A stretch of DNA of 46,910 bases from Ignavibacteria bacterium (GTDB lineage: Bacteria; Bacteroidota; Ignavibacteria; Ignavibacteriales; Melioribacteraceae), in assembly GCA_012719345.1 (NCBI GenBank), contig JAAYAN010000142.1, positions 1 through 46,910 of the forward strand, written 5' to 3'. Position 1 is the stretch's first letter. Every line of letters begins with the position of its first letter. The translations under genes and the position numbers were made by a program. Shown piece after piece: positions 30,783 through 40,589 of the stretch. The notes below the pieces were generated by a model, which had not been told where the DNA came from, made no database searches, and was given only the letters and a program-made list of their open reading frames with translations.

Positions 30783-31775
30783 ATGAAAAACCTGTTACAG
30801 AAAACAGTTCTATTAACAATGATATTCGGCGCAGTGTTAACTGCACAGGATAAATCCGCCGAAAAAATAACCGGTCAGATATTTTTTGATTACACTAACA
30901 CTCTTAGTAAAGAGGCAGGAAAAACAAATCACGAGTTTGAATTTACAAGGATTTATTTCGGATATGAAAATGCTGTTTCAGATGAAATTAAATATTACTT
31001 TTTAATTGATGCCGACAGAACTGATGCTGATAACCAGAGACTTGAAGTGTTTATTAAAAATGCTAAGATTGATTGGATTACAAAATACGGAACAATTATG
31101 ATTGGTATGCAGGGAATGAATATGTTTACCCTTCAGGAAGCAAATTGGGGTTACAGATTTATTGAAAAATCTGTAATGGATGTTAAAGGATTCTCCTCAT
31201 CGGCTGATATAGGAATTGCATATGCCAACAAAATTACAAAAGAATTGGATGTTAAGTTTATGGTTACCAACGGCGGAGGTTTTAAAAAAGCAGAGGCAGA
31301 CAAATATAAAAAATATTCGCTTAACCTTGGATTCGGCGAAAATAAACTTGCATCAAAAGAAGGATATAACATTGGTACTTCTGTTTCTGTTGAACCTGTA
31401 AAGATTAACGATAACCTTGAATACACAACGGTTTACGGAGTTTTTGGCGGGTTCCAATTCGGAGGTTTCAGGATGGGTGCGGAATTCGACCAGAAGTTTT
31501 CGAAAACATCAGCAAATGTATCAAAAACCGAAATGATAATCTCGGCTTATGCAAATTATTCCATAATTGAGAATTTGGATGTTTTCGGCAGGGCAGATAT
31601 TTACGACCCTAACAGTAAAACTTATAACGATGGTGAAAACTACTTTATAGGCGGTTTCAATTACAACGCTTCAAAAGGTTTAAGCGTGGCTCCTAATATC
31701 CGGGTTAAACAATCGTGGAATGAAGGTTCGGACGCTCAAGTTGATTTCAAAGTAAATTTTTTATTTAAAATTTAA
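30783..31775 (+). CDS. porin-like outer-membrane protein of the phosphate operon
   Basis: This 330-residue protein has a signal peptide (1-20, ending AVLTAQ) and strand-rich body with alternating patterns (GQIFFDYTN, FEFTRIYFGYENAV, KYYFLIDADRTDADNQ, GIAYANKITKELDVKFMVTNGGGF) ending in a terminal strand VDFKVNFLFKI, typical of phosphate-selective (OprO/OprP-like) and other 14-18-stranded porins. Its position as first gene of the pst operon suggests that it moves phosphate or small anions across the outer membrane. A strong ribosome site (AAGGAGAG) precedes the ATG. No lysine ladder can be verified from sequence alone. pstS follows after 26 bases. Confidence 0.82.
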   Translation: MKNLLQKTVLLTMIFGAVLTAQDKSAEKITGQIFFDYTNTLSKEAGKTNHEFEFTRIYFGYENAVSDEIKYYFLIDADRTDADNQRLEVFIKNAKIDWITKYGTIMIGMQGMNMFTLQEANWGYRFIEKSVMDVKGFSSSADIGIAYANKITKELDVKFMVTNGGGFKKAEADKYKKYSLNLGFGENKLASKEGYNIGTSVSVEPVKINDNLEYTTVYGVFGGFQFGGFRMGAEFDQKFSKTSANVSKTEMIISAYANYSIIENLDVFGRADIYDPNSKTYNDGENYFIGGFNYNASKGLSVAPNIRVKQSWNEGSDAQVDFKVNFLFKI

Positions 31776-31801: not shown

Positions 31802-32779
31802 ATGAGTACATTAAAAAAAGCAGTGTTTTCGGCAATAATCATTTCAGTTTTATTTTCTGCAGCAAATTACGCTCAGCCCGTTCAGGTTGACGAAAGTCTG
31901 CCGCGCTACAAAAAAACCAAAGGTGTAAAAGGCACATTAAACAGCATCGGTTCCGATACAATTTTGAATATGATGACACTTTGGGCAGAAGGCTTTAAGG
32001 CTTTGTATCCCGATGTAAAAATTCAAATTGAAGGAAAAGGTTCTTCAACTGCTCCGCCTGCGCTTATTGAAGGAACGGCTCAGCTCGGACCTATGTCGCG
32101 TAAAATGAAATCGGAAGAGACTGATAAATTTGAAGATAAATACGGTTATTCACCAGCAGCAATAAGCATTGCGCTGGATGCCCTTGCAATTTATGTTCAC
32201 AAGGATAATCCAATATCCAAACTTACTTTCGAAGAAGCAGACGCAATATTTTCTTCAACTCGCAAACGAGGACATAAGGAAGATATTAAAACCTGGGATC
32301 AGCTTGGTCTTAAAGGCGAGTTTACAAACAAACCGGTAAGCGTTTTCGGAAGAAACTCAGCATCCGGCACATACGGCTACTTTAAAGACGATGTACTCAA
32401 AAAAGGAGATTACAAAAATATTGTTAAAGAACAGCCCGGTTCGGCATCTGTTGTTCAGGGTGTTTCCGAAGATAAATACGCAATAGGTTACAGCGGTATC
32501 GGTTACAAAACTTCGGGAGTGAAGGCTTTGGCTCTTGCCGAGAAAAACGGCGAACCTTATTACGATGCAAATTTCGAAAATGTTAAAGACGGCAACTATC
32601 CTCTTTCGCGCAACCTTTACATATACGTGGCAAAAAATCCTTCTAAAGAAATGGATTTGCTTGTTAAAGAATTTTTGAAATTTGTTCTCAGTTATGAAGG
32701 ACAGCAGATTGTTGTAAAAGACGGATATCTGCCACTTTCCAAAACAGAAGTTACAAAACAATTGAAAAAGATAGAATAA
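31802..32779 (+). CDS. pstS: phosphate-binding protein PstS
   Basis: This periplasmic phosphate receptor has 325 residues. After the signal peptide (1-24) come the anion-binding loops IGSDT (49-53), GKGSST (78-83) and a GRNSASGT loop (about 184-191), and the closing TNKPVSVFGRN and YVAKNPSKEMDLL segments. The PFAM-like PstS fold is complete. It hands phosphate to the PstC/PstA permease. The gene lies 26 bases after the porin, with AAAGGAG before the ATG; a terminator-like hairpin follows, which would make PstS more abundant than the permease. Confidence 0.97.
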   Translation: MSTLKKAVFSAIIISVLFSAANYAQPVQVDESLPRYKKTKGVKGTLNSIGSDTILNMMTLWAEGFKALYPDVKIQIEGKGSSTAPPALIEGTAQLGPMSRKMKSEETDKFEDKYGYSPAAISIALDALAIYVHKDNPISKLTFEEADAIFSSTRKRGHKEDIKTWDQLGLKGEFTNKPVSVFGRNSASGTYGYFKDDVLKKGDYKNIVKEQPGSASVVQGVSEDKYAIGYSGIGYKTSGVKALALAEKNGEPYYDANFENVKDGNYPLSRNLYIYVAKNPSKEMDLLVKEFLKFVLSYEGQQIVVKDGYLPLSKTEVTKQLKKIE

Positions 32780-32788
32780 ACATTTAAG

Positions 32789-32816
32789 TCCGGCTGTTTA
32801 ATGCAGCCGGATTTTT
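32789..32816 (+). terminator. attenuator-type hairpin between pstS and pstC
   Basis: TCCGGCTG (32789-32796) and CAGCCGGA (32804-32811) form an 8-bp perfect stem with a seven-base loop and are followed by TTTTT. It looks like an intrinsic terminator inside the operon, so read-through to pstC would be partial. Confidence 0.85.
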
Positions 32817-32832
32817 AATTTTACAGGTTTTT

Positions 32833-35034
32833 GTGAACAATCCCGAAAATATAAAACATAAAAAAAGAGTAACAAGAAACAATAAAATTGCTTCGTATGT
32901 AATTTCCGCAGGCGGTTTTGGAATTATTTTGAGTATTGCAGCAATTCTATTATTTCTTGTTTACAAATCGTACCCGCTTTCTTCGGATGCGAATCTCGAA
33001 AAAATATCAACAGCCTCTTCCGGTAAAAACAAAGTAATTTTGATGGGGATGGACAGGTTCCAGGAAATAAATTACTCGTTATCCGAAAACGGGGAAATCA
33101 GTTTTTCATCTAACAGCAGCCGGAAAGTTTTTTCTGTAAAAAACATTGATCTCGAAGAAAACGAAAGAATAATTTTTGCGGATAAAGGCAGTCTGCGGAA
33201 CGAGACTTTTGCTTTAATTACAAATTTAAATAGAATTATTACAGCCGAAATTAAAATGACGGCAAAATACCAAAACGATAAACGGCAGATTGTCCCTTCG
33301 CTGGAAATAATTGAGGAATTCAAGGCGGATTCTTCCGGCTTTTCAATAAAAAATTTTATTTTTACATTTAACGAAAACTCCGATAGAATTTACAGCTGGA
33401 CAGACAGCGGCAATAATTTAAACCTTAGAATATTCGGTTTTGACGACGAGGAAATATTTCAACATAATTTAAGCGGATTTATGAACAGCGATGAAATTAA
33501 ATCCTGCGCGGTAAATCACAGCGGCGAGATTTTAATATGCGGAACAAAAACCGGCGAACTTTTTTGGTTCGATATTTCCGATTTTGAAGAACCGGAGCTG
33601 ATTGATAACTGGAAAGCCGGCGAATCCGAAATAACGGCAATGGAATTTCTTCTGGGCGATAACAGTCTTGTTACGGGCGACGGCAAAGGTTTTGTAAGTG
33701 TTTGGTTTCCTGTAAGAAACAGTGAAGGCGTTCAAAAATTTAACAGAATTCACAAGTTCAAAAAACATCAGAGATCTGTGGAAAGGATTTTTGTTTCGTC
33801 GCGTAACAGAACTTTTATGACAATAGATGCCGGCGGCGAAATAATTCTGAATTACTCAACCACATGCCATACAAGTCTTAAATTCCGGCAATCGCAAAAG
33901 AAGGTTGTTTCTGCATCATTTTCACCTAAATCGGATGCAATTCTTGTAACCGATGAAGAGAACAGCACCGGAATTTACACTCTCGACGATAAACATCCCG
34001 AAGTAAGTTTTAAAACTCTTTTCAACAAAGTCTGGTACGAAGGTTACCCCGAACCTGATTTTGTGTGGCAATCGTCCGGCGGTTCCGATGAGTTTGAACC
34101 AAAGATGAGTTTAATTCCTTTGATTTTCGGAACGCTTAAAGGAACGTTTTATGCAATGATATTTTCGGTTCCGCTGGCAATTCTTGCAGCAATTTATGTT
34201 TCACAGTTTGCACCCAAGAAATTTGCTTTAATTGTTAAACCCACAGTAGAAATTATGGCGGCGCTCCCAAGCGTGGTAATAGGTTTTTTAGCAGGTTTAT
34301 ACTTTTCGCCTCTGTTTGAAAAAAACTTAATGTTCCTGTTCTTTTTCACGGCAATTCTTCCGGTTTTCTTCTTATTTGCAATAATCTCGTGGAAATATAT
34401 CCCCGAAGAAAAAAAAGTAAAACTGCCCGGCGGAAGCGAAATGCTTTACGTAATTCCCTTTGCTGTTATGGCTTTTATCGCTGCATCTTTCCTTTCTATT
34501 CCTATTGAAAATACTTTTTTTGGCGGAAATATAAACCAGTGGTTTTATGAAGTATTGGATACAAAATACGATCAGCGGAACAGTCTTGTTGTAGGATTTG
34601 CACTCGGGTTTGCGGTAATACCAATAATATTTACAATATCCGAAGACGCGCTGAGTAATGTGCCTAAATCGCTTACATCTGCAGCTTTGGCTTTGGGAGC
34701 TTCGCGGTGGCAGACTGTTAAAAGAATTGTTATTCCTGCAGCTGCCGGCGGAATATTTTCGGCTATAATGCTGGGGCTTGGCAGAGCAATCGGCGAAACA
34801 ATGATTGTGCTGATGGCAACAGGCAACACCCCGATATTGGAAATGAATCCTTTTAACGGATTCCGGGCAATGAGCGCAACCATTGCGGTTGAAATTCCCG
34901 AAGCGCCAGTTGACGGGTCTTTATACCGCGTTCTGTTTCTTACTGCGCTTCTGCTTTTTGTATTTACTTTTATTATCAATTCGCTTGCCGCCGTTATAGG
35001 CGATAAGCTGCGTAAAAAATATGCGAGATTTTAA
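32833..35034 (+). CDS. pstC: phosphate permease PstC with a long WD40-like periplasmic domain
   Basis: This inner-membrane permease subunit of 733 residues is more than twice the normal length of about 300. After a membrane helix (about 20-45) lies an inserted periplasmic region (about 50-410) with WD40-like strands (SGEILICGTKTGELFWFD, NSLVTGDGKGFVSVWF, RTFMTIDAGGEIILNY, SDAILVTDEENSTGIY). The PstC core starts near 425, with the EAA loop (about 603-640, SAALALGASRWQTVKRI) that contacts PstB. The start is GTG with a weak AGG; no better start was seen. It follows a terminator-like hairpin and overlaps pstA by one base (TAATG). Long PstC forms are known from some gammaproteobacteria, but the role of the propeller is unknown. 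Confidence 0.93.
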   Translation: MNNPENIKHKKRVTRNNKIASYVISAGGFGIILSIAAILLFLVYKSYPLSSDANLEKISTASSGKNKVILMGMDRFQEINYSLSENGEISFSSNSSRKVFSVKNIDLEENERIIFADKGSLRNETFALITNLNRIITAEIKMTAKYQNDKRQIVPSLEIIEEFKADSSGFSIKNFIFTFNENSDRIYSWTDSGNNLNLRIFGFDDEEIFQHNLSGFMNSDEIKSCAVNHSGEILICGTKTGELFWFDISDFEEPELIDNWKAGESEITAMEFLLGDNSLVTGDGKGFVSVWFPVRNSEGVQKFNRIHKFKKHQRSVERIFVSSRNRTFMTIDAGGEIILNYSTTCHTSLKFRQSQKKVVSASFSPKSDAILVTDEENSTGIYTLDDKHPEVSFKTLFNKVWYEGYPEPDFVWQSSGGSDEFEPKMSLIPLIFGTLKGTFYAMIFSVPLAILAAIYVSQFAPKKFALIVKPTVEIMAALPSVVIGFLAGLYFSPLFEKNLMFLFFFTAILPVFFLFAIISWKYIPEEKKVKLPGGSEMLYVIPFAVMAFIAASFLSIPIENTFFGGNINQWFYEVLDTKYDQRNSLVVGFALGFAVIPIIFTISEDALSNVPKSLTSAALALGASRWQTVKRIVIPAAAGGIFSAIMLGLGRAIGETMIVLMATGNTPILEMNPFNGFRAMSATIAVEIPEAPVDGSLYRVLFLTALLLFVFTFIINSLAAVIGDKLRKKYARF

Positions 35035-36536
35035 TGAATTCCCTTAAAGAATATTTCAGAAAAGGCGATCCTTATGTTTTACTTTCATCACTTGGACTGA
35101 TTCTTTCGCTGGTGATGGTTGTTTTTTTTGTAGGAATAATTCTTGTAAAAGGATTGTCAATATTCTGGCCTTCGGATGTTGAACTTGTTCAGCTTAAAGA
35201 CGGTACGAAATATTTAGGCGAACTATGGTCGTCTGAAGAAAATAAAATTACCAATCCCGATCATTCGATAAATGTGGTGCCCAAAGTTCAATATAAAACT
35301 GGCAACCGCGATATTTACGGGTTCGATTTTAAATGGATTGACAAAAGCGAAATCGTGAGTATTTCTAATCCTGCGGATGCAACTGTTTTTGAAAGAAAAG
35401 AATACGGCAATTTTTACGGTTTTATAAAAAAAGTAGCATTTAAAGGTAAAGAATATACAAAGAATAACGAGCTTTTCGATAAAGCAACAGAAGCGCTCGA
35501 TTATTCCGAAAATCTGGTTGAAAAGCAAGCAGACTTGATGAAAAGCGGAAATCCGGATGCCGAAGACAAAATTGAAAAGCTTAATGCAGAAATATCTTCC
35601 ATACAAATTTTAATTGAATCTGCGGACGGCTCACTAAACACTTTTTCTTTATCCAAGTTTGTTGGTTTTTATCAGCCCAACCAGATGAACTTATTCGAAA
35701 AGAGCATTCACTATTTATTAAATATCTGGACTTTCATATCCGGCGAGCCGCGCGAATCTAACACCGAAGGCGGAGTTTTTCCGGCAATTTTCGGAACTGT
35801 AATGATGGTGATTCTTATGTCTGTTCTTGTTGTACCCTTTGGCGTACTTGCAGCAGTTTATTTAAATGAATATGCAAAACAGGGTTTGCTTACGCGGATA
35901 ATCAGACTTTCTGTAAATAACCTTGCAGGAGTGCCGTCAATTGTTTACGGAATTTTCGGACTCGGTTTTTTCATTTATATGATTGGCGGTTCGATTGATA
36001 CATTTTTCTTCAGCGAAAAACTGCCTGAGCCGACATACGGAACCGGTGGAATTTTATGGGCTTCATTAACGCTCGCACTTCTTACCCTTCCTGTTGTTGT
36101 GGTTGCAACCGAAGAAGGAATTTTGGCCGTGCCCAAAGCAAATAAAGAAGGCGCGCTTGCTCTTGGCGCTACAAAATGGCAAATGATTCGTAAAATTGTT
36201 TTGCCAAATGCTGCCCCTGGAATTTTAACCGGACTGATACTTGCAATCAGCCGGGGTGCAGGGGAAGTTGCTCCTTTGATGATAACAGGAGTGGTGAAGC
36301 TTGCACCAGCTATGCCGCTGGACACGATATTCCCGTTTTTCCATCCCGACCGTAAGTTTATGCACCTCGGTTTCCATATTTATGATGTAGGATTTCAGTC
36401 GCCAAACGTAGAAGCGGCTGTCCCGATGGTATATTCAACAGCTTTATTACTTATTATTATTGTAGTATTTCTAAATTTGTTAGCTATCTTTCTACGCAAT
36501 AAAATGCGTAAAAAATATAAATCAGCTTCGTTTTAA
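35034..36536 (+). CDS. pstA: phosphate permease PstA with long periplasmic insertion
   Basis: This 500-residue permease subunit exceeds the usual length of about 280. After the first membrane helix (about 18-42) there is an insertion of some 200 residues (about 45-240) containing a predicted coiled coil (about 145-198, rich in Glu/Lys/Leu), then the permease core (247-500) with the EAA loop GALALGATKWQMIRKIVLP. The insertion resembles long PstA variants reported with the DUF3333-type region. It pairs with the long PstC and overlaps it by one base. PstB follows after 16 bases. Confidence 0.94.
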   Translation: MNSLKEYFRKGDPYVLLSSLGLILSLVMVVFFVGIILVKGLSIFWPSDVELVQLKDGTKYLGELWSSEENKITNPDHSINVVPKVQYKTGNRDIYGFDFKWIDKSEIVSISNPADATVFERKEYGNFYGFIKKVAFKGKEYTKNNELFDKATEALDYSENLVEKQADLMKSGNPDAEDKIEKLNAEISSIQILIESADGSLNTFSLSKFVGFYQPNQMNLFEKSIHYLLNIWTFISGEPRESNTEGGVFPAIFGTVMMVILMSVLVVPFGVLAAVYLNEYAKQGLLTRIIRLSVNNLAGVPSIVYGIFGLGFFIYMIGGSIDTFFFSEKLPEPTYGTGGILWASLTLALLTLPVVVVATEEGILAVPKANKEGALALGATKWQMIRKIVLPNAAPGILTGLILAISRGAGEVAPLMITGVVKLAPAMPLDTIFPFFHPDRKFMHLGFHIYDVGFQSPNVEAAVPMVYSTALLLIIIVVFLNLLAIFLRNKMRKKYKSASF

Positions 36537-36552
36537 TTAACTTAGGATCAAA

Positions 36553-37368
36553 ATGGTTGTAAACATTAAATCGTCACTATCAAATTTGCAGCAGAATGAT
36601 ATTCAGAATGAAAAAATAATTATTGAAACAAGAAATTTGGATTTCTATTATACTTCCGAAAAGAAATCCCTGATAAATGTAAATATCCAAATACCCGAAA
36701 AAAAAGTCACCGCGTTTATCGGGCCATCAGGCTGCGGCAAATCAACTTTGCTCCGTAACTTCAACAGAATGAACGATTTAATTCCGGGAATAAAACTTGA
36801 AGGGCAGATACTTATTGAAGGGCAGGATATTTTCGATAAATCTGTGAGACTGGAAGATTTAAGGAAGAAAGTCGGAATGGTATTCCAAAAATCAAATCCT
36901 TTTCCTATGAGTATTTGGGAAAATGTTGCATTCGGACCTAAAGTAAACGGTGAAACCAACAGCGGCACGCTTAACGAAATGGTAGAATCGGCATTAAAAC
37001 AAGCAGACTTGTGGAAAGAAGTTAAGGACAGACTTACAGATTCTGCTCTCGATCTTTCGGGCGGACAGCAGCAGCGGCTTTGCATTGCCCGGGCTCTTGC
37101 CAACAAACCGGATATTATCTTAATGGATGAACCTGCTTCAGCTCTCGATCCTATTTCAACCGGTAAAATTGAGGAGACAATTGAAGAGCTTAAAAGCAAT
37201 TACACCGTTGTAATTGTTACGCATAATATGCAGCAAGCTGCAAGAGTTTCGGATTACACCGCATTTATGATGGTGGGAGAACTGATTGAATTTAACGATA
37301 CAAAAACTTTATTTACAACACCCGAAAAAAAACTTACCGAAGAATATATTACAGGAAGATTCGGTTAA
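36553..37368 (+). CDS. pstB: phosphate ABC transporter ATPase PstB
   Basis: This ATPase energises phosphate import. Walker A is GPSGCGKST (57-65), the signature LSGGQQQR and Walker B ILMDEPAS are intact, and the H-loop is [13 protein letters not shown]. The length is 271, slightly longer than the usual 250 owing to about 20 extra residues at the N-terminus. The gene lies between pstA and phoU, the normal order. A low-complexity GATTAAG-rich spacer (about 37409-37440) follows before phoU. Confidence 0.97.
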
Positions 37369-37455: not shown

Positions 37456-38127
37456 ATGAAAGAAAAACTTGAACATATGCTGGAAGATATTAAAAAAGAT
37501 ATTATCTTTATGGCAAACGAAGTTGAAGACGCAATGTACAATGCTCTTAAAGCATTGGAAAAGCAGGATAAATCCCTGGCAGAAAAAGTAAGCAAATCCG
37601 ATAAAAAAATAAATTACCGCGAAGTTGAAATAGAAAAAATGATTCTTTCCCTTATGGCGCTGCAACAGCCTGTAGCAGTGGATTTGCGGTTCATGGTAGT
37701 TGCGCTTAAAATGAACAACGACCTCGAACGGATAGGCGACCACTCGAAAGGAATTGCAAAAGTTGCAGCAAAACTTACAGGCGAGCCATATATTAAATCG
37801 TTCGAAAAAATTCCGGCACTGGGTAAACTTACACGAAATATGCTGCGCGATGCAGTTCAGGCTTTTATAAATATAAATACCGAACTGGCTTTGGAAGTAA
37901 GAAAACGCGATAAAGAAGTTGATGTTTTATTTTCCGAAATTTATAATTCGGTTCTTAATGAAATGACTGAAACTAAAAACAATATTCATCAAGGTGTTGA
38001 ACTTATAAGCGTATGCCGCCACCTCGAAAGAATTTCGGACCTTTCAAAAAATCTTTCTGAAGATGTTGTTTTTATGAAAGAAGCAAAAATAATCCGTTAC
38101 GGAATTGAGAAAAACAAGGTTAGCTGA
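37456..38127 (+). CDS. phoU: phosphate-signalling protein PhoU
   Basis: This 223-residue all-helical PhoU has two three-helix bundles with the metal-binding D/E-x-x-x-D motifs (for example NDLERIGDHSKGI and CRHLERISDLSKN). It links the Pst transporter to the PhoR kinase, holding it in its phosphatase state when phosphate is plentiful. It stands between pstB and the regulator, the conserved order. AGAGAG precedes the ATG. The regulator begins two bases after its stop. Confidence 0.96.
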   Translation: MKEKLEHMLEDIKKDIIFMANEVEDAMYNALKALEKQDKSLAEKVSKSDKKINYREVEIEKMILSLMALQQPVAVDLRFMVVALKMNNDLERIGDHSKGIAKVAAKLTGEPYIKSFEKIPALGKLTRNMLRDAVQAFININTELALEVRKRDKEVDVLFSEIYNSVLNEMTETKNNIHQGVELISVCRHLERISDLSKNLSEDVVFMKEAKIIRYGIEKNKVS

Positions 38128-38129
38128 AA

Positions 38130-38804
38130 TTGAAAACCCGTATTTATATTGTTGAAGACGATCCGGATATAGCCGAGCTGCTTGATTTTAATCTCCAAAG
38201 TTCAGGATATGAAACAAAGTCGGAACCAAACGGAAAAAAAGCTTACGATATGATTATGAAAGATCCGCCGGATTTGCTCATTCTGGATTTGAACCTTCCG
38301 GAACTTTCGGGTATCCAGATTTGCAAATTTTTAAGGGAAAACGCCCGTACAAAAAATCTTCCGGTAATTATGCTTACTGCCAAAGCTCAGGAAACCGATA
38401 AAGTTATAGGGCTTAATATCGGCGCGGACGATTACATTACTAAACCTTTCAGCGTTAAAGAACTTATTGCGCGGATTAAAGCTCTGTTAAGAAGAATTAA
38501 CCCGGTAAACAGCGATTCTTTTATTTATAAAGAACTCGAAGTGAATTTTGCCTTAAAACAAGTAAAAATAAAAAATAAAGAAATTGAAATTACACCCATA
38601 GAATTTAAACTTATAACGGCATTCATAAATTCGCGGGGACGTGCTCTTTCACGCGAAGATATTTTAAATATTGTGTGGGGAAACGATTACTCTGGCGAAA
38701 TAAGGACTGTTGATGTTAACATTAAAAGGCTTCGCGACAAGCTGAATCCATACGGCGAAATTATTCAAACTGTTAAAGGAACAGGTTACAGATTTAAAAC
38801 ATAA
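38130..38804 (+). CDS. PhoB/PhoP-family response regulator
   Basis: This 224-residue OmpR/PhoB-class regulator has a receiver domain (1-120) with acidic residues Glu9-Asp10-Asp11, phospho-acceptor Asp53 and the switch residues Thr81/Lys103-type in MLTAKAQETDK and ITKPFS, plus a C-terminal winged helix (about 130-224) ending TVDVNIKRLRDKLNPYG and GTGYRFK. It would activate pst transcription, possibly at the 11-base direct repeat upstream of the porin gene. It starts with TTG, two bases after phoU, with AAGG upstream inside phoU. The adjacent PhoR-like kinase is its likely partner. Confidence 0.93.
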   Translation: MKTRIYIVEDDPDIAELLDFNLQSSGYETKSEPNGKKAYDMIMKDPPDLLILDLNLPELSGIQICKFLRENARTKNLPVIMLTAKAQETDKVIGLNIGADDYITKPFSVKELIARIKALLRRINPVNSDSFIYKELEVNFALKQVKIKNKEIEITPIEFKLITAFINSRGRALSREDILNIVWGNDYSGEIRTVDVNIKRLRDKLNPYGEIIQTVKGTGYRFKT

Positions 38805-38819
38805 ACTGAAAATATAATT

Positions 38820-40589
38820 ATGAAATCACTTTCGAAAAAAGCTTTTTTATATACTTTAATTATTACTGTATTCTCAATAATTTTGCTCGACGTATTTTTT
38901 TATGTGAACACTAAGGATTTTCTTGCCGACGAAGTTAAAACGGAGCTGAACAAGCAGATTAAACTTGCGCGGAAAATTATTGATATAAACGCTTTTAACG
39001 AACGCGATTATAAAAAACTGAAATATTACAGTGATGAAATCCGCAGACTGACCGGCAGCCGGACAACCTTAATAGCTAAAGACGGAACAGTTCTGGCTGA
39101 TTCCGAGTTGGATTCGCTGGATCTTAAACGTACCGAAAACCATTTTAAACGTCCCGAAGTTAAGGAAGCTATGGAAAAAGGGATAGGTTTTTCGGAAAGA
39201 CACAGCGCTACAATCGAAAAAAATCTTTTCTATTATGCCGAAAATCTATACGAAGGCAAACGTATTTCAGGCTTCATCCGCTTTGCAGTTTTTTCCGCTA
39301 ATTTGGATTCGCGTCTCGAATTTTTAACAAATATGCTTATTATAATTGATATTTTCGTAATAGTCATCGTCTTTGGATTTTTAATTATATGGCAGAAAAA
39401 AGTTAAAAAGCAGAGAGAATCTTTAATAACCGAAATTTCACTGCGTTCCGATCAACCGGACTTTATTGATATTCCTTCGCAAAAATATGCCGAGTACGAC
39501 AAAATTGCATCCGGAGTGAATTCGATTGGAAAGAACTTGTTTAATCTTAAAGAAAGATACAAACAAAGTTTTACTGATCTTCTGGGTCTTTTTAATTCAC
39601 TTCACGAAGGAGTTGCGGCTTTTGATAAAAACGGTAGACTTCTTTTTTTTAACAAACCGTTCAGCCATATTTTTAATACCGAAAATGCGGTTGAAGGAAA
39701 ATCATTTTTTTATGATCTCATTCATTTCCCGCCGCTAATAAATGATATCCATAAATTTCTAAAATCTAATTTGTTTGTTACCAACCGTACAAAATTTTCC
39801 GGCAGCCGTTATATCGAATACCAGATTTCGCAGTTTAATCTTGAAGATATGCAAGCCGGGTTTATTATAACCGTTGAAGATGTTACAAATCTCCAGAACC
39901 TCGAAATTATCCGGCAGGATTTTGTTGCAAATGTAAGCCACGAATTTAAAACTCCGCTTACTTCCATACGCGGCTACGCCGAAACTCTTCTTTCCGATTC
40001 GGTAAACGACGAAGTGATGCAAAAAAAATTTCTCGAAAAGATAGAAAAACAAACACGTAAACTAGAAAACATTGTAACAGATCTTCTGCAGCTTACGCGT
40101 ATCGAAAACAGAGAAGTTGAAGAACTTACCGAAATTGATCCTGTCTCGACATTAAAAGAAATTGCCGATGATTTTTCATTCCGATGCAAGGCTAAAAAAA
40201 TAGATTTTACAACTGATTTTCTTGTAAATTCCGGAGAAGTAAAAATACTTGCAAACCCTCAGCTTCTTCAAACGCTCGTTTCAAATCTTCTTGCAAATGC
40301 TATTAATTACAATTCCGAAAAAGGCGGAGTGATTTTTAAATGCAGCGCTAACAATAAATATTTTATTGCGGAAGTAGCCGATACAGGAATAGGAATTCCA
40401 AAGGACGAAAAGCAAAGAATATTAGAAAGATTTTACCGTGTAGATTCATCGCGGGGTATTTATCCCGAAGGAAGCGGACTGGGGCTTTCAATTGTGAAAA
40501 ACATTACTGAACTGTTCAGGGGAAAAATAGAGCTCGAAAGCGAGTCCGGAAAAGGCAGCAGATTTATTGTTTATATCCCATTGGTTTAA
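38820..40589 (+). CDS. PhoR-like sensor histidine kinase
   Basis: This 589-residue membrane kinase has two membrane helices (about 8-28 and 171-191) flanking a periplasmic domain of about 140 residues. Then comes a linker, a PAS domain (about 250-360, ending ITVEDVTNLQ), HisKA with His374 in NVSHEFKTPLTSIRGYAE, and an ATPase domain with LLANAINY, DTGIGIP and GSGLGLSIV. It senses the PstSCAB-PhoU complex state rather than phosphate itself in known systems. Its long periplasmic domain is unlike E. coli PhoR and more like Gram-positive PhoR/ResE-type kinases. The ATG lies 15 bases after the regulator stop. It is the last gene of the operon. Confidence 0.93.
   Translation: MKSLSKKAFLYTLIITVFSIILLDVFFYVNTKDFLADEVKTELNKQIKLARKIIDINAFNERDYKKLKYYSDEIRRLTGSRTTLIAKDGTVLADSELDSLDLKRTENHFKRPEVKEAMEKGIGFSERHSATIEKNLFYYAENLYEGKRISGFIRFAVFSANLDSRLEFLTNMLIIIDIFVIVIVFGFLIIWQKKVKKQRESLITEISLRSDQPDFIDIPSQKYAEYDKIASGVNSIGKNLFNLKERYKQSFTDLLGLFNSLHEGVAAFDKNGRLLFFNKPFSHIFNTENAVEGKSFFYDLIHFPPLINDIHKFLKSNLFVTNRTKFSGSRYIEYQISQFNLEDMQAGFIITVEDVTNLQNLEIIRQDFVANVSHEFKTPLTSIRGYAETLLSDSVNDEVMQKKFLEKIEKQTRKLENIVTDLLQLTRIENREVEELTEIDPVSTLKEIADDFSFRCKAKKIDFTTDFLVNSGEVKILANPQLLQTLVSNLLANAINYNSEKGGVIFKCSANNKYFIAEVADTGIGIPKDEKQRILERFYRVDSSRGIYPEGSGLGLSIVKNITELFRGKIELESESGKGSRFIVYIPLV

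Follow-up and report, generated by a model that had tools for sequence, protein, structure and literature searches.

A WD40-type propeller in PstC marks a long form of the PstSCAB phosphate importer with its own PstA domain and PstS type

The mechanisms of phosphate uptake and PhoR signaling have been drawn largely from the short transporter of Escherichia coli, PstSCAB (PDB 9k3s, 9k3x, and 9k3y), in which PstC comprises 319 aa and PstA 296 aa, the former having no propeller and the latter no additional domain of the kind described below. Two arginines in this permease, PstC R237 and PstA R220, are required for transport, and PstC Glu240 has also been named in the E. coli work, according to PMC5775613. 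In the maltose transporter, the MalF-P2 domain contacts the binding protein MalE (PMC3150292 and PMC8134467).

Here, we examined a long form of PstSCAB in the genome of an Ignavibacteria bacterium. Long PstC proteins are already in public records, for example as an "ABC transporter permease subunit" of 677 aa. Among openly licensed PMC papers we found no description of a PstC propeller, which is no proof of absence.

The operon and its long permease subunits

The window, that is, the whole stretch of 46,910 nucleotides analyzed (contig JAAYAN010000142.1), contained a phosphate operon in which all genes were on the plus strand, in the order porin-like, pstS, pstC, pstA, pstB, phoU, and a phoB/phoR-like pair. 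The pstC gene (32833..35034) is a single open frame with a GTG start that encodes 733 aa and scored 218.6 bits against the NCBIfam equivalog TIGR02138 (cutoff 196.45); genes for PstS, PstA, PstB, and PhoU were all present, placing it as PstC by operon context as well. It is preceded by pstS (31802..32779; TIGR02136 above cutoff), which profile comparison assigns to the PstS type found with long PstC, and followed by a long-form pstA (35034..36536; 500 aa, TIGR00974 above cutoff). Further downstream, pstB (36553-37368) and phoU (37456-38127) were recognized from their translations, which as phmmer queries matched the annotated pstB and phoU of a Pseudomonas aeruginosa record. The phoB-like response regulator (38130-38804) was read from the sequence, and the phoR-like kinase (38820-40589) encodes a periplasmic sCache-like domain at residues 36-154 (Pfam, E 6e-6). 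The gene for an outer-membrane porin-like protein located 5′ of pstS (30783..31775) was likewise read from the sequence, with only a sub-threshold Pfam match. A terminator-like hairpin, with 12 pairs followed by a T run, was located between pstS and pstC (32786..32814; -20.1 kcal/mol, z -4.9) and may raise PstS output above that of the permease.

Approximately 350 extra residues lie between the first transmembrane helix of PstC (TM1, residues 27-46, 32911..32970, from family hydropathy; model helix 4-50) and the second (TM2, residues ~434-452). We modeled the protein with AlphaFold2 using its own sequence and those from 68 of 80 loci retrieved in the genome scan described below, the others being cut by contig ends, frame-broken, near-duplicate, or simply unchosen. 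The resulting model from these 69 aligned sequences had a pLDDT of 88.5 overall and ~94 in the insert, with a pTM of 0.79. It contained 28 strands across residues 54-385 (32992..33987), which we assigned to seven blades of four strands each, and the outer strand of blade 7 is contributed by residues 54-62, directly after TM1, closing the ring. The best solved WD40 match in VIA-align was AIP1 (Z 29.0, rmsd 2.9, 291 residues aligned, model residues 53-386), WDR61 had a Z of 28.1, and Foldseek matched the PstC model to G-beta and other WD40 proteins. Many WD40 and other propeller families in Pfam matched residues ~165-390 (best E 4.7e-10, residues 219-340). The insert did not reach the gathering score of any of these families (39.7 bits versus 90 for the best propeller family, and 12.2 versus 27 for PF00400), and we therefore refer to a WD40-type fold rather than to a Pfam WD40 member. 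Such families were also matched at E ≤ 0.01 in eight of nine long relatives scanned, and the long PstC of P. aeruginosa had no WD40 or propeller match at this threshold.

Residues 54-385 almost certainly adopt a propeller fold. The sequence-only reading had proposed a WD40-like domain within PstC at 32980-34100, and the strand count, the blade number, and Z scores of up to 29.0 to solved WD40 proteins bear this out; that span fits well, corresponding to residues 50-423, with the propeller proper at 32992-33987. Its assignment of the domain to the periplasmic side also gains support, in that the domain's place after TM1 and before TM2, together with hydropathy and the basic N-terminus, predicts a periplasmic location.

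The propeller leads to TM2 through an exit linker (residues 386-427, 33988..34113) that carried invariant columns across the 69 sequences (H388 P389 ... WYEGY ... VWQ ... E422 K424), mean column identity being 0.78 for residues 401-425 versus 0.42 for the insert. Additionally, we noted a second insertion in PstC that had gone unmentioned before, an extra TM hairpin at residues 499-563 (34327..34521; model helices 499-521 and 535-563), and the PstC profile matched the protein in two overlapping pieces, consistent with this insertion. The permease core (34543..35031) could be aligned with E. coli PstC, in which residue 71 corresponds to residue 426 of the 733-aa protein. R651 aligned with E. coli PstC R237 and was invariant in the 69 sequences; in PstA, R407 aligned with E. 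coli R220 and was invariant in 60 sequences. E655 fell at E. coli PstC position 241 in our alignment, versus the Glu240 named in PMC5775613. Judged by alignment, the permease core keeps the arginines needed for transport in E. coli.

In the case of PstA, the model and alignment were built from its own sequence and those of 59 loci. The model contained a periplasmic beta domain with a coiled coil at residues 45-216 (35166..35681; defined by model strands, pLDDT mostly 80-95), and within this a coiled-coil hairpin at residues 144-189 (35463..35600). PDB comparisons with the PstA model were dominated by permease matches. The 500-aa PstA was the shortest of the 60 aligned, the others having 529-560 aa, and its hairpin was some 46 aa shorter than in close relatives. 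Thus, of the extra coiled-coil insertion claimed earlier for PstA, the extra domain is real, and the coiled coil is just a part of it, the remainder being beta-rich. The coiled coil is also disfavored as the key element, since no other part of PstA is so poorly conserved (0.32 versus 0.81 in the core) and since it is shortened here.

Spread and inheritance of the long form

A survey of the Melioribacteraceae recovered a PstC match in 60 of 79 genomes and, by open-frame length, a long PstC (599-760 aa) in nine of the 79, each with a long PstA (506-556 aa). Scanning genomes with the long PstC alignment returned at least 524 relatives, of which the best 80 were kept. The long form was present in 80/80 of these best relatives, which spanned at least ten phylum-level groups, including Ignavibacteria, Calditrichota, KSB1, Desulfuromonadales, other deltaproteobacteria, Brocadiaceae, Planctomycetota, Nitrospinota, Nitrospira, Dadabacteria, Rokubacteria, Latescibacterota, and Gemmatimonadota. 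Eight genomes from the scan loci had the long protein as their sole PstC above the PstC cutoff. In the class to which Malonomonas rubra belongs, a long open frame was present in about 33 of 58 genomes, a count made by frame length, with the propeller not checked in each. The family survey, the best-80 scan, and the M. rubra class together rule out an insert unique to the source genome. Among the matches listed, a second family of this phylum (f26, genera g94 and g99) had PstA frames of mostly 450-500 aa, an additional size class. Phage records matched in the core alone, with none of the 20 matches listed extending into the insert.

Records from Aeromonas caviae and P. aeruginosa also matched, and here the alignment ran over the whole length of PstC, including TM1, the propeller, the linker, and the TM hairpin. 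The insert alone matched with E-values of 7e-14 to P. aeruginosa and 3e-11 to A. caviae, at 24-28% identity in the matched stretches only, and the PstA proteins of P. aeruginosa and Aeromonas (558 and 549 aa, respectively) had the same extra domain as the 500-aa PstA. The possibility that the gammaproteobacterial long forms, which the sequence-only reading had mentioned, carry unrelated inserts is ruled out by the insert matches and the whole-length alignment. Rather, insert, linker, and TM hairpin are homologous, and the proteins fall on a single branch of the core tree. We also observed that the annotated 677-aa PstC of P. aeruginosa (WP_003123734.1; NZ_CP070468.1, locus L106:1468-3801) begins at residue 101 of its open frame, which leaves out TM1 and the first strand of the propeller, both of which are in frame upstream and conserved in the family. 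The true start probably lies further upstream than annotated, and the likely truncation in this record may mislead cloning and structural work.

We reconstructed a PstC tree from core columns only, for 70 rows, leaving out L034 and L103 (long, without the trim motif) and many further long loci. The 36 long and 34 short proteins were separated by one branch, with a single change between forms (SH-aLRT 100, branch length 1.10, quick method). Repeats of places already fetched (L017-L024) and pieces of counted places or unused loci (L001-L004, L107-L126) were excluded from the locus counts. The propeller HMM scored at least 174.7 in 87/87 long PstC, while none of the 48 short PstC exceeded -2.2 (0/48), the former count being partly a product of selection, since long loci were picked by PstC similarity; the PstA and PstS counts are free of this. 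The extra TM hairpin followed the same pattern, with HMM scores of 67-109 in the 87 long PstC versus at most 21.7 in the 48 short ones. A survey of which PstC and PstA forms occur together had been suggested from the sequence; it showed the PstA domain in 84/84 long loci (HMM score ≥138.5) and in 0/47 short loci in which PstA was found (≤0.4).

PstS followed the same division. PstS of one type was located upstream in 77 of 83 long loci (263-591 bits; 73 of the 77 sequences entered the PstS profile, those of ≤250 aa being left out). Of the six loci without it, five begin at the edge of a contig or close to it, and the sixth is Aeromonas (L105), in which we recognized no PstS gene beside PstC. 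PstS adjoining short PstC scored at most 145, and in many short loci no PstS was found by the profile. Five genomes had both kinds of operon, and in each the PstS type matched the PstC type. Specifically, in G479, G500, G502, and G512, PstS of the long operon scored 544-568 and that of the short operon 10-73, while in G051 the short operon's PstS scored 145 and the long operon (L020/L025) was within the long-type PstS set. All four features, namely the propeller, the extra TM hairpin, the PstA domain, and the distinct PstS type, are thus inherited together.

A few loci departed from this layout. One long pstC (L070:8239-10075) had no adjoining pstA and was followed by what we read as a gatA-like gene on the opposite strand, and two loci (L046 and L047) end at a contig edge. 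In Haloferax mediterranei (L149), a 540-aa PstA was present beside a 377-aa PstC; its PstA-domain HMM score was ≤0.4, below the range of the long loci, which suggests more than one origin of long PstA.

Propeller conservation and candidate partners

The loops of the propeller differed in conservation between its two faces, membrane-side loops averaging 0.441 versus 0.311 JS for far-side loops, or 0.438 versus 0.288 without glycine. This contrast had a p of 0.004 in 5000 shuffles of the loop labels (69 sequences, effective 57), as an exploratory single test on a predicted model. The conserved face is taken as the membrane side because the chain ends lie there. Conservation was strongest in loops 74-78, 273-278, 322-326, 342-345, and 364-368, and was higher still in the exit linker (388-424).

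WD40 propellers commonly bind peptides on their top face. The invariant polar positions present in the PstC propeller could suit a domain that binds a ligand of its own, such as a peptide, a sugar, or a metal, and thereby regulates uptake. However, the face usually used for binding is the less conserved one here, and we consider this role very improbable. A propeller that reaches toward the outer-membrane porin or the cell wall and passes phosphate from porin to PstS would draw on the variable, membrane-distal face. Such a link is suggested by the porin-like gene 5′ of pstS, an arrangement seen here and in a few relatives, yet our search recovered a porin gene at only 11 of the 83 long loci. 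On this count, porin partnership, one of the roles that the sequence-only reading had offered, was rejected as a general role, a judgment with which the variability of the distal face agrees, and we regard the link itself as extremely improbable.

The regulatory genes bear on another role, in which the propeller would be a platform for signal output, informing PhoR of the transporter's state by way of the kinase's periplasmic sCache-like domain. The operon's PhoR-like kinase has this domain, whereas E. coli PhoR has no periplasmic domain according to PMC5775613. Against this, PhoB-like and PhoR-like matches shared the strand of the long operon in just 31 and 29 of 83 loci, respectively, and the E. 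coli signaling model, as given in that paper, runs via PstB and PhoU without a propeller. We therefore find a signaling platform distinctly improbable.

Next, we compared distances between parts of the importer across 52 loci. With both cores removed, the residual correlation between the propeller and the PstA beta domain was the top of seven pairs (0.535); for the propeller it was 0.456 with the PstA coiled coil, 0.409 with the TM hairpin, and 0.273 with PstS, and the remaining part pairs were also positive (0.22-0.39). Because all seven pairs were positive, those with the TM hairpin included, the value of 0.535 is a hint only, and residual distance correlation was rejected as proof of contact. 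It does accord with a role in assembly or stability, in which the propeller would brace PstC on PstA and on its own extra TM helices without touching PstS. The conserved membrane-side face and linker are in keeping with such bracing, as is the fast evolution of the insert (mean identity 0.29 versus 0.60 in the core). Bracing alone, however, leaves the distinct PstS type unexplained, even within single genomes, unless linkage accounts for it, and we think this role unlikely.

A possible docking collar and its relation to known systems

We favor a role in which the propeller and the PstA domain of the long PstSCAB importer dock or position PstS, a proposal for and against which we are evenly divided. 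The propeller would be seated on the permease mouth via its conserved membrane-side face, formed by blades 5, 6, 7, and 1 and the exit linker, with the PstA beta/coiled-coil domain adjoining it. Together, the two would constitute a collar that keeps PstS in place and controls when it delivers phosphate. That the two periplasmic domains form a joint cap, as first suggested from the sequence, is plausible; we infer contact with PstA, contact with PstS, and gating. PstS docking is indirectly favored, because the distinct PstS type cosegregates with the long permease and conservation lies on the membrane-side face. Cosegregation of genes within one operon is also expected from linkage, which alone suffices to produce it.

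Natural variants indicate what such a cap may dispense with. Four Desulfuromonadia genomes (L168-L171) encode a PstC of 640-641 aa that is missing ~105 residues where the propeller begins, a loss of about two blades that includes the conserved blade 1 loop; TM1, the remainder of the protein, and the accompanying PstA domain and PstS type are kept. This is possibly a five-bladed version, and a complete seven-blade cap is therefore not essential. At the other extreme, PstC reached 871 aa at two loci (L172 and L173), where both the propeller region and the second insertion were longer and the neighboring PstA comprised 600-605 aa. The domain boundaries permit a clean deletion test, with the naturally shorter versions offering a comparison.

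Extended to the whole importer branch, with its at least ten phylum-level groups and P. aeruginosa among them, the proposal becomes that a permanent collar captures a coevolved PstS and gates delivery, which we put forward tentatively, as somewhat less probable than docking itself. If a propeller-capped form is in use in many bacteria, a major pathogen among them, the E. coli model may not transfer to these.

Compared with known systems, the PstC propeller has the same fold as the WD40 propellers WDR61, Ski8, and AIP1, including closure by an N-terminal strand (Z 27-29), at ~12-13% identity, and differs from them in that it is predicted to be periplasmic and is anchored to the membrane at both ends. 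The long importer shares with E. coli PstSCAB the permease core and the equivalents of R237 and R220. MalF-P2 resembles the PstC propeller in being a large periplasmic domain carried by one of the permease subunits in a type I importer. To our knowledge, MalF-P2 is not a propeller, and we have no evidence of common descent between the two domains. MalF-P2, at MalF residues 91-271, contacts its binding protein, according to the papers cited above, while docking by the PstC propeller is proposed from conservation and cosegregation. In operation, the collar would resemble MalF-P2, which retains MalE at the maltose transporter, while differing from it in fold and origin. If the collar exists, the problem addressed by MalF-P2 would have been solved a second time, independently, and in a manner unlike the E. 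coli mechanism that underlies current models of phosphate sensing.
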